A stretch of DNA of 64,000 bases, from positions 4,278,001-4,342,000 of the forward strand of contig CP084611.1 of assembly GCA_025917655.1 (NCBI GenBank). The letters are read 5' to 3'. How positions within the stretch are numbered: the first letter of the stretch is position 1; each line of letters begins with the position of its first letter. Below are positions 11,391-49,771 of the stretch, one piece after another. The notes below the pieces were generated by a model that was not told the DNA's origin, did no database searches, and saw only the letters and a list, made by a program, of their open reading frames with translations. The translations under genes and the position numbers were made by a program. The DNA is from Chlorella sorokiniana. Lineage: Eukaryota > Chlorophyta > Trebouxiophyceae > Chlorellales > Chlorellaceae.

Positions 11391-11707
11391 CCCAATACGT
11401 TGCTTAAATGTTATGGATCACTTCAGCACGGACTCTTGCGCAAACCAAGGCAGGGATGACTGGTCAGCATATGCAGGCAGAGTCTAGGCCTCTTCGAGCT
11501 TATACCGTAGTGCCACAGCTGTCAACAATTGCAAGTGGCATGAATGCGACGGACGTTCCGAGGCCACCTGGCATTCCGACATGTCGCGACATACTAAAAA
11601 CTAGGCAGCATATGGGCCAACTATGACATTGGTTGTTTTGTATCAGCAATAAAAAAGCATTGGAAAGGATCTGATCGGTCTCAGGGTCGCTGAACGGAGG
11701 AGGCAGA
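11391..11707. promoter_or_regulatory. Divergent promoter region, membrane protein / 5-oxoprolinase
   Basis: 317 bp lie between the two start codons, so both promoters must sit here or overlap. The stretch is less GC-rich than the genes. I see no obvious TATA box. Confidence 0.4.
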
Positions 11708-14700
11708 ATGGGAGGGGGCGGAGAACCCTCCCCCAATAGATTTTCCTTTTCCATTGATCGTGGCGGTACTTTCACGGGTAATAATATTGACGTAGACAGC
11801 ATCGTGACCTCTGCAGCGCTGCAGCGCGGCCTGAAGCGGGCGTTGCACCGCTGTTTGCCCTGTATGCATGCTGATATGGTCAATCAATATAAAATGTGGC
11901 ACAACAAGAGCGGCAAAGGCCCCTGCTGCCCAGCGGCTCACATCAACGCTTGACGCGCAGCTGCCGCCGCTGCTGCTGCCTGCGCGACAAGCTCACACCC
12001 GCTCCAATCGCTCACCCTGGCCGCCTGCAGACGTGTATGCTGAGTGGACAGATGCATCGGGCCAGCAGCGCACCCAGGTCCTCAAGCTTCTGTCCGAAGA
12101 CCCGGCCAACTACCCGGATGCGCCGCGGGAGGGCATCCGCCGCGTGCTCGAGGCGGAGACGGGCGAGCCGCACCCGCGCAACGCTCCTCTGGACACCTCA
12201 CGCATCGCGTCCATCCGCATGGGCACCACGGTGTGCGGGGGCGGCCCGAATGCAGCGCGGACGCCTCCCTTACCTGCTGGGCAGCCGCCGGGCAGCGCCA
12301 GTCCGCCACCAACCAGCTCACGGCATGCCGCACTCACTCGCCTGCATTGCTTGTCCACTCACCGCCCATGCGAGCTGGCAGGTGGCCACCAACGCGCTGC
12401 TGGAGCGCAAGGGCGAGCGCACGGCGCTGGTGGTGACGGCCGGCTTCCGGGACCTTGCACATCGGCAACCAGGTGGGGTGCCGGGGCTCAGGCACCCACA
12501 GCCCTGATGCGCCAGCCGTCAGCAGCCGCAGGCCTGCATGCAAGAGAGCTTCTGGGGGCCAGGCACTGCACACCCCAGCGCCGTGGCATCGCGCCACCCC
12601 GGGGAAAGCTTGACTGGCTGCCTCTGAGCCTCTCCTGTGCTGACCCCGCGCAGTCCCGCCCCAACATCTTTGACCTGGAGATCCGGGCGCCTGAGGTGCT
12701 TTATGAGACCGTGGTAGAGGTTGAGGAGGAAGTGGTGCTGCCCCTGGGGGACACGCCTGGCACGTGAGTGGCAGCCGCGTCCAGGCGGCGGTCCTGCACA
12801 TGCTCTACGGGCCGTCGCACGCGGCGTGCGGCAAGGTTGGATGCCTCTGGGCTGTGACGGTTTGGTAAGCATGGATAGCTCATGATTTGCCGCTGCGTGG
12901 TTGTTCTTTGCCTCGCCGCTGCAGGCGGGCCGGCAAAAACCCGGCCGGGGACAGCGAGCGGCACCCGCTGGGCGGCACCGCAGCAATCGCCGTCACTGGG
13001 GAGGCGGTGTGCGTGCGGAAGCCGCCCGATCTGCACGCCCTGCGGATGGAGCTGCAGAAGGTGTTGGATGCGGGTGCGCTCGGCTGGCTTGGCGCTCATA
13101 GCAGCTGATGCAGCACCGGCCCCTGCCCCGCCGCTTCCCTTGTCAGCCGTGCGTGTGCGCAGCCTCGCGCTGGGCAAGCCGCTTCCCTGCCGCCGCCTGG
13201 GCTGGGCTGCCCGACCGAGACCCCTGGCCTGATTGCTGGCACCCCTGCCTCACCTGCAGGCATCAGCAGCGTGGCTGTCGTGCTCAAGCATGCCGCCATC
13301 TTCCCTCAGCACGAGCAGGCGGTGGGGCAGCTGGCGCGGGAGATGGGCTTCCGCCAGGTGTCGCTTTCTTCAGCGGTGATGCCCATGGTGAAGATGGTGC
13401 CGCGCGGCTTCACCGCAGCTGCCGATGCATACCTCACGCCTCACATCATGCGGTAGGCTGCCGACCGGGCCCGCCATGCAGCTGTGCCGGCCTTTGCATG
13501 CCTGCTGCTGTTGCTACTGGTGATGGCATGCGCGCATAGGGAGGGCTGGGCCTCTCTGCCCCTTCTGTGTATTTCTCTTGGTGATATATACTTTCTGTAA
13601 TGAATTCACCGTCCCCCTCCCCACCAGGTACATTGAGACGTTCCAGGCTGGGTTTGACGAGGGCCTGAGGCGCGTACCCGTCTACTTCATGCAGTCGGAC
13701 GGCGGCCTCACCTCGGTGGCAGACTTCTCGGGCCACAAGGCCGTGCTGTCTGGGCCCGCAGGCGCGCTGGCTGCATAAACCTTTTTCCAGCTTGCGGGTT
13801 GGAATAAGGTCAACGGGCGGAGGGCTACGATAGGCGTAAACAGGCAGCTGCCTTCGCAACGCAAGGCGTAGGCCTGGCGCCTTGCCAGCTCAGCAAGCTG
13901 CGCTGCGCTCAGCGCACCTGCTTTGCATTGAGCCGCACTCCCTGCTGCCTGCCATGTGGGTATGCAGGCGGGTATGTGGGCTACGCTGTGACGACCCGCT
14001 GGGGCGGCGTGGACGCGGGCAAGCTTCAAATCATTGGCTTTGACATGGGCGGCACGTCCACGGGTACGGCCCGACTACTGCCTTCCTGATGGATTGCACC
14101 CCCTCGGCACGACACTTGAACGCCTGACCGCTTGTGACCAACAGCCCCCTCCTGCATCATCTCTCCCACGCCCGCACCTCACTGCCACCTCCCGCCGCAG
14201 ACGTGTCGCGGTACGCGCGGGCGGTACGAGCACGTCTTTGAGAGCACCACCGCTGGCGTGACGATCCAGGCGCCGCAGCTGGACATCAACACGGTGGCTG
14301 CGGGCGGCGGCTCCCGCCTCTTCTTCCGCTCTGGAGTCTTTCAGGCAAGGGGGCAGTGGCCGGGTGGGAACATTTCTGAGGCCCTCCCTGGTGTGCGCTC
14401 CGCTCAGGCTTCCCGTATGTGGCTGACCTGTGGTTTTGCTCGTGATCTTGGGAGCTTGTCATGACAACCAAGCAAGCCAAGCCATCGGTCGAACGCATGG
14501 TGCGCCCGCTGCCGCAACGCTTGTGCAGGTGGGCCCTGAGTCGGCTGGGGCACACCCGGGCCCCGTGTGCTACCGCAAGAACGGGTTCCTGGCCATCACA
14601 GGCAAGGCTTGACGGGGCCTTGGGGCCCTCAGCGCTTGATCATCCCTGCCGCTGGAGCGTATCGGCGCGTGCTGGCCTGGCATTCACATGCGGCAGCCGC

Positions 14701-43827: not shown

Positions 43828-46800
43828 CTAATAGCGATGGATTGCGTGGCTCGCCGTCACCTCTTGTCGCTTGGCGGCGCTGAGTTGCTGAGCGCGACTG
43901 CAGTGTCCGCTGCAACGCCTGCCCCATTCATGCTCTTCGCCTCTACGAGCTGCACGGCTGGCGTTGCCCGCTTGGGTCCTGGGAAGCAGGCACCCAGGAC
44001 GCCTAGCCTGCGACCTGCGCAGAAGGGAATGGACGAGCACACAAATCGAACCCTGCAGGGTCGGCTTCACGCCAGCAGCACGCTTCGACAAGCCCACAGG
44101 GAGCGCAGCGCTGCTCCCGCTGCGTCGCAGGCTGCCGCCCCACACTCACCTTGGGCCCCGGTCTCCTCCTGCAGGAAGAAGTCCACGAGGCACGACACCG
44201 CGGCAAAGCCCACCGACACCATCAGGCAGCTCCCAAAGCCGTCCACCACAGTGCTGCCGATGTAGCTGTACAGCGCTCCAGAGGACAGCGTGCCCACCAG
44301 CCGGCCCACTGCATTTGAGGCGTAGTACACGCCCACCGTCTGGGCCACCTGCGCAACAAAAAGGGGAGGGGCCAGCTCAGATGGTGCCAGCTGCCAAATT
44401 TTGGGCGCCGCTGGCAGCGTAGCAGGCGGAGACGCTTGCCTTGTCGCCCTCTGCGTAAGATACAATCAAATATGAGTGGATAGCGGAGTTGATGGCAAAC
44501 ACGAGGCAAAAGGCATACAGGACGACGGTGATGGCGACCACAGCAGGGGCTTGCGCCACGCCGGGGCCAAAAGTGTCTGCACAAGAGAAGGCGAAGACAT
44601 TCAACACATGCATCGATACGTCAAGTACATGCAATAGTACCGCAGAATGCAATTCTCGCACGCAGAGGCACAAAATGGTGGGCGCAGCTTGAGGTTGAAG
44701 GCTCTGGGGTGCAGGCCTCAGCCACCCACCTCCAGCCAACATGACGACGCCCAGGGTGAGGGGCACCACGGTGAGGATGCCGCACCAGAGGGCGGCCACC
44801 CACTTGTTTGGGGGCGACTGCTTCAGTGGCCCCAACACCAGCTGCGGCGTCCAGCTCTGCATCTGGCCGTAGATAATGATCCAGACCTGCGGTGAGCAGG
44901 CGGGGCGGGCCCACTCTCTTGTCTCAGGCCTAGGCAAGATGGCGATATACATGCTTTCAGGACTGCAGACTACAAACGAGACCCCTCGCATCCAAGTGAA
45001 GCGGCTGCCATGCGGCATCCAGCCGCTACGCAGCCTCACCGCAAGGAAGGCGCCCGTGGCAGAGCGCGACCAGCCAATGCCCGACTCGGCGCTGCGCAGG
45101 AAGAAGGGCAGCGGCACCTCGAACCACAGGTCGCGAGCGCCAAACAGGAAGACGCGGGAGAGGGAGAGGATGTTGACGTTGGGCTTGTTTCTGCGCCAAA
45201 ACCGTGAACGGAAGAGTTGAAATCAGGTGGATGGCGGCTTGAACAGGCGCGGATGCAGGCCTGCACGCGCGCACCCCCTCTCGCCGCCTACCACAACAAG
45301 ACACATTGAACTTTAAGCGTTGTTTGTGCCGGCACCACTCACTCGAACAGCTTGGCCAGCGTGACGTTCTCCTTGCGCGCGCGGCCCAGCTGGTTGGACA
45401 GGCCGGTGATGGCCCACGGCATGGCCGCCACAATCAGGCCGCACAGGATGCCCAGAGACATGTAGTAGCTGCGAGGTGGTGTAAGGAGGGCAGCACACAT
45501 GGCAGGGTCAGCTGCACAGGGATGGATGCATGGACAGCTGGCTTTTGTTGTTTGCAATCGCTCCCCCTGCAGAGCGCAAAAGTGCCACCAGCTGAGCGGG
45601 TGCATATGTTTGGTCAACTCACTTGACAGCCACGGTGGCGGCACCCAAGAAGTATCCGGCGCCCTTGAGGCTGTTCTTCCAGCCCGTGATGAGCGACACC
45701 AGCCGGAACAGCGACGTCTGCTTCTCCTCTGCAGCACGGAAAGGACAGCGAGGCTTGCGACAATGGGGAGGAGCACAGGCCAAAGCTGCCAGGCCCCGAC
45801 CAAGCCCCTCGTCTGCGTGGGCACGCTGCTCCGGGGGCCGTGGTATCCCACCTGGCGTCACCAGCTTGGTCACTGTCTTGCCGCCCAGCTTGGTGAGATC
45901 CTTGGCGATGCCGCACATGAGCTGCGTGGCTGTCACGTACAGGATTGCCTGCAGCTTGGACCAGTCGTCCTGCATCGGGTGGGGGGGGCACGGGCTGGCC
46001 TGAGAGGGTGCTGCCAGCGCGGCACACGGCATGCATTCGTGGCACACGCGCGCCCGCCCGCCCCCGCCCCCGCGCTCCGGGGGCCCGCTGGGGCCCTGCT
46101 CACCTGCCAGCCAAAGAGCATGCCTATGCCGACCAGCTGCAGCGAAAGCCCCGTCAGCAGGGTGGACTTGATGCCCCACTTGGCACCCATCATCCCCGCA
46201 GCGAGGTTGGTTATCACGCCGGCCAGCTGCAGGCGCATGGATGGCGTGGGAGGTGTTGTTGGGTGGGGACAGGGGGCGGCGAGGAGGGCAGGCCTGGGAG
46301 CAGGGGCAGCCGCATTGACATGCATGGCAGCAGCAGCAGCAGCAGCGCTCGCCTCATAGAAGGAGAACATGATTGCCACCTCCATGGCTGAAAAGCCCTT
46401 TTGGTAGGCATGCAGCAGCACCACCATGCGCACGGCGCCGTCAGTGGTAGTGAAGAGCAGGTAGGAGAGGGAGATGATCACAAAGGGCTTGAGCGCGGAG
46501 AAGCGCTGCGCCATGCTCTGCCGCCGCGACATGGGCGCCGACGGGGCGGAGCTGGCGGTGTCGCCGCCACCCAGCAGCCGCTGCTCGTACGTCGCGCGGT
46601 CCAGCACCTCCTCATGCAGCTCCCGCTCCGCCTCCTCGCCCTCGGCGCGCCGCTGGCGGGCGGCCACGCGCAGCCGCACGCCTTGCAGCTCCGTGTCTTG
46701 AAACAGAACCTGCGCCGGCGCAGAAATGGGAGGAGGCAGGCGTTGGAGGACTCCCATCCGGCACCGGCCAGGCATTGTGTGCGATACCCAGGAAACCATG

Positions 46801-47052
46801 CTTCGCTAAAGTAGCGATCTCTGTCAGGATGACCCAGGGATTACGCGCTCAATACACAGGAAGCGCCGCTTGGCCGTCCATACTCGGCACGCCTTGCAGC
46901 GCTCTCACCTCCGCCGCTGGCGGCTGGCACTGCACGCGGCCATCAACCGCTGCCGCGTCTACTGTTTGATCGTCAAAACTGCATACCAGCTTGCCGTTGA
47001 CGTCTACAACGTCCTGCTGGGCAGGCAGCTCACAGCAGGAAAAGGACGCCAT
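43828..47052 (-). CDS. ARSJ: ArsJ-type MFS permease, exporter of 1-arseno-3-phosphoglycerate
   Basis: In bacteria ArsJ exports the arsenate ester made by a partner GAPDH; outside the cell it falls apart to arsenate. The family signature is clear: SLSYLLFTTTDGAVRMVVLL, MEVAIMFSFYE joined to LAGVITNLAAGMMGAKWGI, LLTGLSLQLVGIGMLFGW, CGIAKDLTKLGGKTVTKLV, LFRLVSLITGWKNSLKGAGY, NVNILSLSRVFLFGARDLWF, EVPLPFFL, VWIIIYGQMQSWTPQLVL, ALWCGILTVVPLTLGVVML and QTVGVYYASNAVGRLVGTLS. About twelve helices, as expected. Unlike the bacterial proteins it has some 125 extra N-terminal residues (MASFSCCELPAQQDVVDVNG, then a Glu/Arg-rich stretch). About ten exons; one intron has a GC donor near 46358. The C-terminal exon is uncertain: stop at 43828 or 43857 by phase. 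The neighbour across 233 bp is the matching GAPDH. Likely plasma membrane. Confidence 0.88.
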
Positions 47053-47285
47053 GGCTACAGAGCAGGCGAGATGTCTATTACAGGTCTAAATGGTCCGACT
47101 AACCATGTGATACAATATGGCTATGCGGAAACGTTATTTCACGCAAGCCTGGTGTTGCAGGCGGCGCCCTTGAAGGCGCATAACGCGAACCAACGCGAGG
47201 AGGACCTTATGGAATCAACCTGCTGTCGCTGTGATTTAGTATTATTTTTCGTTTTTTTGATCATCCGTCCTGCCCGGCCCTCGCA
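47053..47285. promoter_or_regulatory. Bidirectional promoter region between ARSJ and its GAPDH
   Basis: 233 bp separate the ATG of ARSJ (47052, minus) from the ATG of the GAPDH gene (47286, plus). Both 5' UTRs and any control sites must fit here, which would give joint expression. The GAPDH-proximal half has a T-rich stretch (GTATTATTTTTCGTTTTTTT). No TATA box or known arsenic- or phosphate-response site is evident. Confidence 0.6.
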
Positions 47286-49771
47286 ATGGCTCCCATCAAG
47301 GCAGCACTGAATGGAGCCGGACGGATCGGTGCGCCTTCATCATTGACACACACTTGCTGAACCACTAAAATAGCCATGTGGTTGAACGCAATACACGGTG
47401 AAGCCCCTCTCAGCAGCCCGCCCGCCGCCGCGGCGCCGCGCCCGCCGCTCCTCCCTGCAGGACGCCTTGCCTTCCGCGTGCTTTTCGATGAACAGCAAGA
47501 CTTGATTCAGGTTGTGCACATCAACGAACCCAGTCCCATTGAGTCCACAGCTTACCTTTTGAAGTACGACAGCGTGCATGGTGAGTTCATTGTGAGTGCC
47601 AGCTCGGAGACCTCCAGGAACAGCTGTGCTGAGCAGCCAGCATGCGCCGCCTGCCCTGCCAACGGCAAGCTCACCAGTTGTGCTTCGCAGGCACCTGGCA
47701 GCATGATGTGAAGGCAGAGGATGGCAAGATTGTGATCACGCGCAAGGATGGCAGCAAGGCGGTGCTGACGTATTCTGAAGCCAAGAGCCCTGCTGAGGCA
47801 CGCACTGCCGAATGTTGCTGCCCCGGACCTTGCCTGCATGGCATGCTTGCCAGGTTGACACTTATTGTGGTTTTCTGCTGCGACATACACGAGCCTCAGA
47901 GGGGGTGGCTGAGCCAGCACTTGCTTTCCTCCCCTGCAGGTGGATTGGGGCAAGCTGGGTGCTGACCTCATCCTCGAGTGCTCTGGAAAGTTCCTCACCC
48001 GCGCCAAGCTGCAGCCCTTTTTGATGCGGTGCGTGGGGGGCTGCAACGACAAAGTAATGCTGCCCAGGCTGCAACCTACATTGAACAACGACAGGGAAGC
48101 AGACACAGAGGCCGCCGCCCACCCACCCTTGTTCTGCTGGTAGTTGCTGCTGACAAGCCTCAACCCGGTGCACTGCTGCAGGGCTGCAAGAAGGTGGTGG
48201 TCTCTGCCCCCGTGAAGGACCCTGCCCCCGTGCTGAACATTGTGTATGGAGTGAACCACGTGAGTCAACCATGCTGTGCAGCCGCCGGCCCTGCGTGCCC
48301 CGTCCCTGCTAAGTGTCACAGTTGTGGAGCCGCTCTCCGTTGTTGCTGGTATTGCCGCGAAGTGTTGCTGCTACGCTGATTTCTCGGGTTTGCCCGCCGT
48401 GTGCCAAGCACCCTGCCACTGTCCCTGGCCTGCAGGAGCTGTACAACGCGGCAAACGACCACATCGTCACCGCCGCCTCCTGCACCACCAACTGCCTGGC
48501 CCCTGTGGTCAAGGTGGTGCACGAGAAGCTGGGCATCGTGCATGGCTGCATCACCACCATCCACGACGTCACCAACACGCAGGCAGGGCGACTGAGGGGG
48601 CGTCAGCCGCGGGCGGGGCGCACGGCAGCCGGGCGCTGGCAGGGCGTCGAATCGGAGGGCTGTGCTGCCTGCGGGCGCTGGCAACCTTGTGCATGCGGCT
48701 GATGCTCGACGCCTGCTTGGACCCCCCCCCCCCCCCCGCCCCGCAGACAGTGGTGGATGCCCCCAACTCCAAAAAGAGCGACCTGCGGCGCGCCCGCTCC
48801 GCACTCTGCAACCTGGCCCCCACCTCCACCGGCAGCGCCACAGCCATTGCCCTCATCTTCCCCGGTGCGCCGCAGACACCACTGCTGCTCCTGCGCTCTT
48901 CAAGACCTGTTGCCGTTGGTTGCCAGCTGACTGGCGGCGCAGCAGCCGGCCGTGCCTTGATGTGTTCTCACCCTGCCGCTGCTGCGCTTCCCCCTTCTCA
49001 CCCCATCACCCTGCCGCCGCTGCCCCCGCCTCGCCCCCCCTCCATTCCTCCCGTTGGTGTGCAGAGCTGAAGGGCAAGCTGAACGGGCTGGCGGTGCGGG
49101 TGCCGCTGCTCAACGGCTCCCTCACCGACTGCGTGTTTGAGGTGCAGCGGCCCACCACCGCAGAGGAGGTCAACGCGCTTTTCAAGGTGCCCCCCCGCTG
49201 CGCCGTGCGCTGCGCTCCTGCCTGCCCTGCTGGGCCGGCTGCGCTGCCTCCACGCCGCAAGCGCGCCCCTCGCGTGCGCTTGCTTGTCCACCACCCGGCG
49301 CTGGTTCCCTGAGCGCCCCTGGCCCTCCTTCCCCCGAACTCGAAGCGTAGGAGGCGGCAGAGACGTACCTGGAGGGCACGCTGGGCTACGAGGAGATGCC
49401 CCTCGTCTCCACAGACTACATCAACGAGCGGCGGCCGGGCGTGGTGGACGCGCCCTGCACCCAGGTCATCGACGGCACCATGGTCAAGGTGTACGCGTGG
49501 TACGGTGAGGCCCACGCCGCACGCGGGCCGTGGGCAGCGGCTGCCATGTGCCACGTGGCATGCTGCGAGCGATGCACGCCGGGCACGCTGCCGCCAAGCG
49601 CGCCTGCTGGGATGGAGCGGCTGGAGCATTGCCTTTGCGTCCGCTTGGGGCCCTCCTGCAGCTCTGGTCATGCAGCCTGTCGTGCCGCCCATCCTCCCCG
49701 TAGATAACGAGTTTGGCTACTCATGCCAAATGGTGAAGGTGGCGGCCATGGTGGCACAGTCGCTGCAGTAA
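47286..49771 (+). CDS. GAP: ArsJ-associated glyceraldehyde-3-phosphate dehydrogenase
   Basis: A type I GAPDH of the branch that accompanies ArsJ in bacterial ars operons; with arsenate instead of phosphate it makes 1-arseno-3-phosphoglycerate. Rossmann motif [15 protein letters not shown] is split by the first intron (exons 47286-47328, 47461-47580). Then [20 protein letters not shown], where cytosolic housekeeping GAPDH has an INDPF-type motif, and [20 protein letters not shown]. The catalytic site is [20 protein letters not shown] and the base His lies in [11 protein letters not shown]. Later: [65 protein letters not shown] and [15 protein letters not shown]. No transit peptide, so cytosolic. 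About nine exons; the donor at 47798 is GC. One frame slip near 48181-48183 fits a missing G. Stop at 49769-49771. Confidence 0.93.

Follow-up and report, generated by a model that had tools for sequence, protein, structure and literature searches.

An ArsJ-like transporter gene and an ArsJ-type GAPDH gene are arranged head-to-head in Chlorella sorokiniana

We have analysed a 64-kb stretch of the genome of the green alga Chlorella sorokiniana (assembly GCA_025917655.1, contig CP084611.1, positions 4,278,001 to 4,342,000), referred to here as the window. It contains a gene for an ArsJ-like transporter of the major facilitator superfamily (MFS) and a gene for an ArsJ-type GAPDH, which lie head-to-head on opposite strands with start codons 233 bp apart, ATG to ATG. 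Both genes are spliced, and the GAPDH falls within the clade of bacterial GAPDHs linked to ArsJ. In all likelihood, the pair is a further case of the GAPDH3-ArsJ neighbourhood described in green algae in 2020 (Foflonker and Blaby-Haas, PMC7826186, cited here from excerpts, as are the other papers), in a form that has no PGK gene nearby. A role of the pair in arsenate resistance is highly probable by analogy with its relatives.

Results

Identity of the two proteins

Among the NCBIfam models, the best match of the GAPDH is NF033735, the ArsJ-associated GAPDH, at 479.4 bits (E 6e-144), above the cut-off of 450. Seven further models of GAPDH or erythrose-4-phosphate dehydrogenase, and a weak match to aspartate-semialdehyde dehydrogenase, all stay under their cut-offs. 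Pfam finds two GAPDH domains in the protein, which is 55-61% identical to the GAPDHs of six bacterial pairs. Its top matches among solved structures are ordinary GAPDHs, with at most 306.5 bits.

In a phylogenetic tree of 74 rows, the window GAPDH lies inside an ArsJ-linked clade of 52 rows (51 linked rows and itself) with support of 100/99, and within this clade its position is not settled. Arabidopsis and rice GAPC, spinach GapA and 16 of the 19 other bacterial GAPDHs are found on the other side of the tree, on a branch with support of 86/50; three longer dehydrogenases fall outside both sides. The linked rows consist of 50 of 83 bacterial sequences, kept after thinning by shared 4-mers, and of L097, which entered as ArsJ-type on similarity alone. 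The 19 others were taken from 30 GAPDH loci, 10 being omitted as arsJ-locus copies of the same genomes, and the GAPC and GapA references are plant, not algal, proteins. L097 is a second ArsJ-type GAPDH of a Marinobacter genome (G005), located on a different contig from the arsJ locus of that genome (L055). Comparison of the 83 linked GAPDHs with 18 others (L115-L117 left out) defined diagnostic positions, at which the window GAPDH has the linked-type state in 13 of 16 cases and the glycolytic-type state in 1 of 12. An earlier reading of this locus, made from its letters alone (the sequence-only reading), had assigned the GAPDH to the ArsJ-associated branch, and the tree bears this out by grouping it with the ArsJ-linked GAPDHs, apart from plant GAPC and GapA.

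For the transporter, the sole NCBIfam match is NF033734 (MFS_ArsJ, an equivalog model), which covers residues 124-529 with E 9.5e-112; Pfam reports MFS_1. We call the protein ArsJ-like rather than ArsJ proper because its score is below the cut-off of NF033734, so that the protein kinds named by the sequence-only reading hold with this reservation for the transporter. It is 37-42% identical to six bacterial ArsJ proteins, and its gene adjoins that of an ArsJ-type GAPDH. The ArsJ tree was built from 53 of 84 bacterial rows and the window protein, the ArsJ frames of L055, L061 and L087 not being among the 84. Two Chromatiales-like ArsJ frames of about 600 residues (L042 3650-5779, L068 3929-5830) carry a C-terminal extension that, by eye, we take to resemble a membrane-fusion (HlyD/lipoyl-like) domain.

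Bacterial arsJ loci

We compared the pair with 87 bacterial arsJ loci, namely seven plasmid loci chosen from 66 records and the best 80 of at least 579 genome candidates. At 83 of these loci, arsJ is preceded on the same strand by the GAPDH gene. No GAPDH was found in the flanks of the other four (L023, L065 and the short contigs L079 and L081); L065 and L023 (Prochloron didemni, Byssovorax) have about 4 kb on each side of arsJ. As the bacterial pairs are all co-directional, with not one divergent gap-arsJ pair among the 87 loci, the head-to-head order in the window differs from the bacterial order. The connection with the gap-arsJ module of bacteria that the sequence-only reading had drawn is supported by this near-constant pairing, together with the GAPDH clade and the diagnostic positions. 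Near the gap-arsJ genes of three plasmids, two cyanobacterial and one from Pseudomonas, phosphatases of the dual-specificity or CDK-inhibitor-3 type are annotated (L001 7465-7920, L003 7495-7953, L005 2427-2930), which are reminiscent of VarH of Vibrio cholerae.

Gene models and introns

The whole window was searched by tblastn with 83 bacterial GAPDHs and 84 ArsJs (E 1e-3), and the 468 GAPDH and 374 ArsJ segments obtained are all within the two genes (Table 1). The models were spliced by following the bacterial reading frame and are both free of internal stops. Three GAPDH exons and three ArsJ exons drew no segment from these queries; the first and last exons of ArsJ, which have no bacterial counterpart, are the least certain parts of its model. 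The presence of spliceosomal introns in both genes and the distance between the starts are as the sequence-only reading had them, and the motifs it quoted from both proteins are present in the translations. Its span for the locus needs one correction: the GAPDH does end at 49771 on the plus strand, but the ArsJ model on the minus strand stops at 43857 rather than 43828.

The borders of the 19 introns are GT-AG in 15 cases and GC-AG in four, a share of GC-AG that seems high, since in most genomes such introns make up low percentages. Three of the GC-AG introns (142, 164 and 91 nt) change the reading frame and must therefore be removed, whereas the fourth is in frame. It belongs to a group of four among the ten ArsJ introns (46227-46352, 45729-45851, 44887-45039 and 44577-44729) which could formally be read through, as their lengths are divisible by three and they contain no in-frame stop. 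Bacterial ArsJ matches cross these four to some degree, at mean tblastn depths of 75, 44, 28 and 17, and this counts against the number of introns; excising the four restores stretches that align with bacterial ArsJ, such as FYE..GV.TN. Each of the remaining 15 introns of the pair shifts the frame or has a stop inside.

The gap between the start codons has a G+C content of about 0.47-0.53, compared with 0.6-0.7 around it. A phosphate-starvation motif, GNATATNC, has a single match across the window (at 11467) and none inside the gap. A promoter shared by the two genes may lie in this interval.

Table 1. Positions of the gene pair and its parts in the window
Feature	Position	Strand	Description	Evidence
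ArsJ-like MFS transporter gene	43857..47052	minus	11 exons, 591 aa	spliced translation, NCBIfam NF033734, Pfam MFS_1
ArsJ exons 1-6	47052-46909, 46709-46353, 46226-46104, 45969-45852, 45728-45623, 45468-45343	minus		
ArsJ exons 7-11	45190-45040, 44886-44730, 44576-44440, 44348-44150, 44014-43857	minus		
GC-AG introns, ArsJ	46227-46352, 44349-44439	minus	126 nt, 91 nt	
ArsJ-type GAPDH gene (named GAPDH3 in PMC7826186)	47286..49771	plus	10 exons, 349 aa	spliced translation, NF033735, tree, diagnostic positions
GAPDH exons 1-5	47286-47328, 47461-47580, 47691-47797, 47940-48032, 48182-48259	plus		
GAPDH exons 6-10	48436-48582, 48747-48864, 49065-49186, 49351-49504, 49704-49771	plus		
GC-AG introns, GAPDH	47798-47939, 48583-48746	plus	142 nt, 164 nt	
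Gap between start codons	47053..47285		233 bp; has to accommodate the 5' leaders of the two genes and the promoter(s)	

Surroundings of the pair

Neighbouring genes, read from joined fragments, match the Pfam families of ATP synthase gamma, hydantoinase/oxoprolinase, EMC3, acyl-ACP thioesterase, a Myb-like domain, KH domains, Nop14, DUF7811 and DUF1825, with a leucine-rich repeat just under the cut-off. Judged by their families, these neighbours fit the nuclear genome of a photosynthetic eukaryote. The ATP synthase gamma gene (PF00231, 37686-39728, minus strand) lies about 4 kb away from the arsJ end and contains a stretch that we take for the redox loop typical of gamma subunits in chloroplasts.

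Five PGK queries produced no match in the window with an E value under 0.14; of these queries, L120, L121 and L122 are complete, L118 is incomplete and L119 is another protein. As a control of this search, 30 GAPDH queries (11 of them ArsJ-type) recovered the window GAPDH gene in 135 segments. Eleven proteins of ars operons had no convincing match in the window: that of ArsH (E 0.006 over 37 residues, 12555-12659) is within the oxoprolinase-like region and looks like chance, as does that of ACR3 (E 0.059). Three queries for relatives of the phosphatase-like neighbours of bacterial gap-arsJ found none in the window, nor did a tRNA scan find any tRNA or Rfam any family at gathering score.

Discussion

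Published precedents

The sequence-only reading had regarded a nuclear eukaryotic gap-arsJ pair as undescribed. This claim has to be given up, as PMC7826186 presented such a pair, with mutants, in 2020, and PMC9812998 (2023) reported arsJ in red algae (Cyanidiales), with a eukaryotic clade in its arsJ tree. According to the excerpts of PMC7826186, which covers nine chlorophytes including Chlorella NC64, an ArsJ gene is found near a GAPDH gene named GAPDH3, and the two are either both there or both missing in the green algae analysed; in its wording, genomes lacking the arsBHC cluster carry the ArsJ type. A PGK-like gene, PGK3 or PGK4A, accompanies the pair in most genomes but not all, and in Trebouxiophyceae PGK2 does not lie near the two genes. 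In Chlamydomonas, insertion mutants of arsJ and pgk3 were severely impaired on arsenate (PMC7826186).

A possible mechanism and what is exported

Arsenate would enter the cell by mimicking phosphate, and GAPDH3 would join it to glyceraldehyde-3-phosphate, giving 1-arseno-3-phosphoglycerate. This unstable compound would then be moved out of the cytosol by ArsJ, and arsenate would thereby be removed without reduction to arsenite. In the model for Pseudomonas (Chen et al. 2016, as retold in PMC7826186), GAPDH makes 1-arseno-3-phosphoglycerate and ArsJ exports it, and export of the arseno-compound is kept as the model for Halomonas in the excerpts of PMC5930303. On the strength of the bacterial systems and the Chlamydomonas mutants, the window pair would carry out the same reaction and export and confer resistance. 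The membrane in which ArsJ sits, and any control exerted from the 233-bp gap, we can only infer.

Several observations weigh against this reading. The score of the transporter, 374 bits, misses the curated NF033734 cut-off of 400 bits, and in the ArsJ tree of 54 rows the protein forms a very long branch (5.31) with no supported neighbour group. The GAPDH scores above the cut-off of the general GAPDH-I model of NCBIfam as well (385.7 against 367.2 bits), so that a plain GAPDH activity is still possible. The mutants described in the excerpts of PMC7826186 are of arsJ and pgk3, none being of GAPDH3, and no 1-arseno-3-phosphoglycerate was detected outside the cells of V. cholerae (PMC9601151, excerpts). 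The two cut-off results would also fit an ordinary housekeeping GAPDH that stands beside an unrelated transporter by chance. We reject this explanation as very improbable, since the NCBIfam matches, the diagnostic positions and the bacterial gap-arsJ pairing argue against it and the GAPDH tree contradicts it.

What ArsJ exports is disputed in bacteria too (PMC9601151). It is conceivable, though we give it the smaller chance, that the same module works by another step, in which GAPDH3 holds arsenate transiently as 1-arseno-3-phosphoglycerate, the compound decays and ArsJ exports free arsenate. In V. cholerae the compound was detected inside cells, and internal arsenate rose about 20-fold on loss of ArsJ but about 3-fold on loss of GAPDH (PMC9601151). 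V. cholerae, however, uses the phosphatase-like VarH, and our three queries found in the window no relative of the phosphatase-like neighbours of bacterial gap-arsJ, although one could lie elsewhere; the Halomonas model retains export of the arseno-compound. Within a resistance role, we judge export of 1-arseno-3-phosphoglycerate to be the likelier of the two steps.

Origin of the pair

PMC7826186 puts forward the hypothesis that green algae acquired both genes together from bacteria, as one functional unit, and the near-constant adjacency of gap and arsJ among the bacterial loci is consistent with such an origin. When ArsJ was constrained to group with filamentous cyanobacteria, the tree was no worse (approximately unbiased test, p-AU 0.559); the same constraint on the GAPDH, run without L078, cost 25.9 log-likelihood units (p-AU 0.087). 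As the two trees name no common lineage, we leave the donor open, and joint transfer of both genes from one donor, as judged from these sequences, is unproven. The lack of a common donor, the placement of ArsJ being open, would also be expected if the two genes had come from bacteria separately, or had an old common history in eukaryotes, with an adjacency that is secondary and not the relic of an operon. The gene order in the window, unlike that in bacteria, and the report of arsJ alone in Cyanidiales and of a eukaryotic arsJ clade (PMC9812998) point the same way. In view of the bacterial adjacency and of the gain as a unit favoured in PMC7826186, we regard separate or old eukaryotic origins as possible but doubtful.

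Comparison with known systems

The window pair is a further instance of an arsenate-efflux module that is known in bacteria and has been reported in green and red algae. It bears on the cycling of arsenic and on the way in which algae distinguish phosphate from arsenate. Its divergent two-gene order and a possible shared promoter may be of modest interest. Tentatively, this could be a PGK-less two-gene form in which a co-directional order became divergent under one bidirectional, arsenate-responsive promoter in the 233-bp gap, and in which a new N-terminal arm of ArsJ could control or place the transporter.

Compared with the bacterial gap-arsJ pair, as in Pseudomonas aeruginosa and Halomonas GFAJ-1, the window has the same two kinds of protein encoded side by side. 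The bacterial pairs are co-directional with GAPDH upstream in all 83 loci that have both genes, whereas the window pair is divergent and intron-bearing, and its ArsJ has about 107 extra N-terminal residues relative to bacterial ArsJ. The var operon of V. cholerae (ArsR, the GAPDH VarG, the phosphatase VarH and ArsJ; PMC9601151) likewise sets GAPDH and ArsJ against arsenate, but it includes ArsR and a phosphatase, and its ArsJ is proposed to export free arsenate. The arsJ of Cyanidiales is eukaryotic too, but is reported alone and not clustered in the excerpts of PMC9812998. The closest likeness is to the green-algal neighbourhood of PMC7826186, a paper whose text does not use the words orientation, strand or divergently. 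There, as here, an ArsJ-like transporter gene stands beside an ars-type GAPDH gene, nuclear and with introns, and the absence of PGK from the 64 kb of the window fits the remark of that paper on PGK2 in Trebouxiophyceae.

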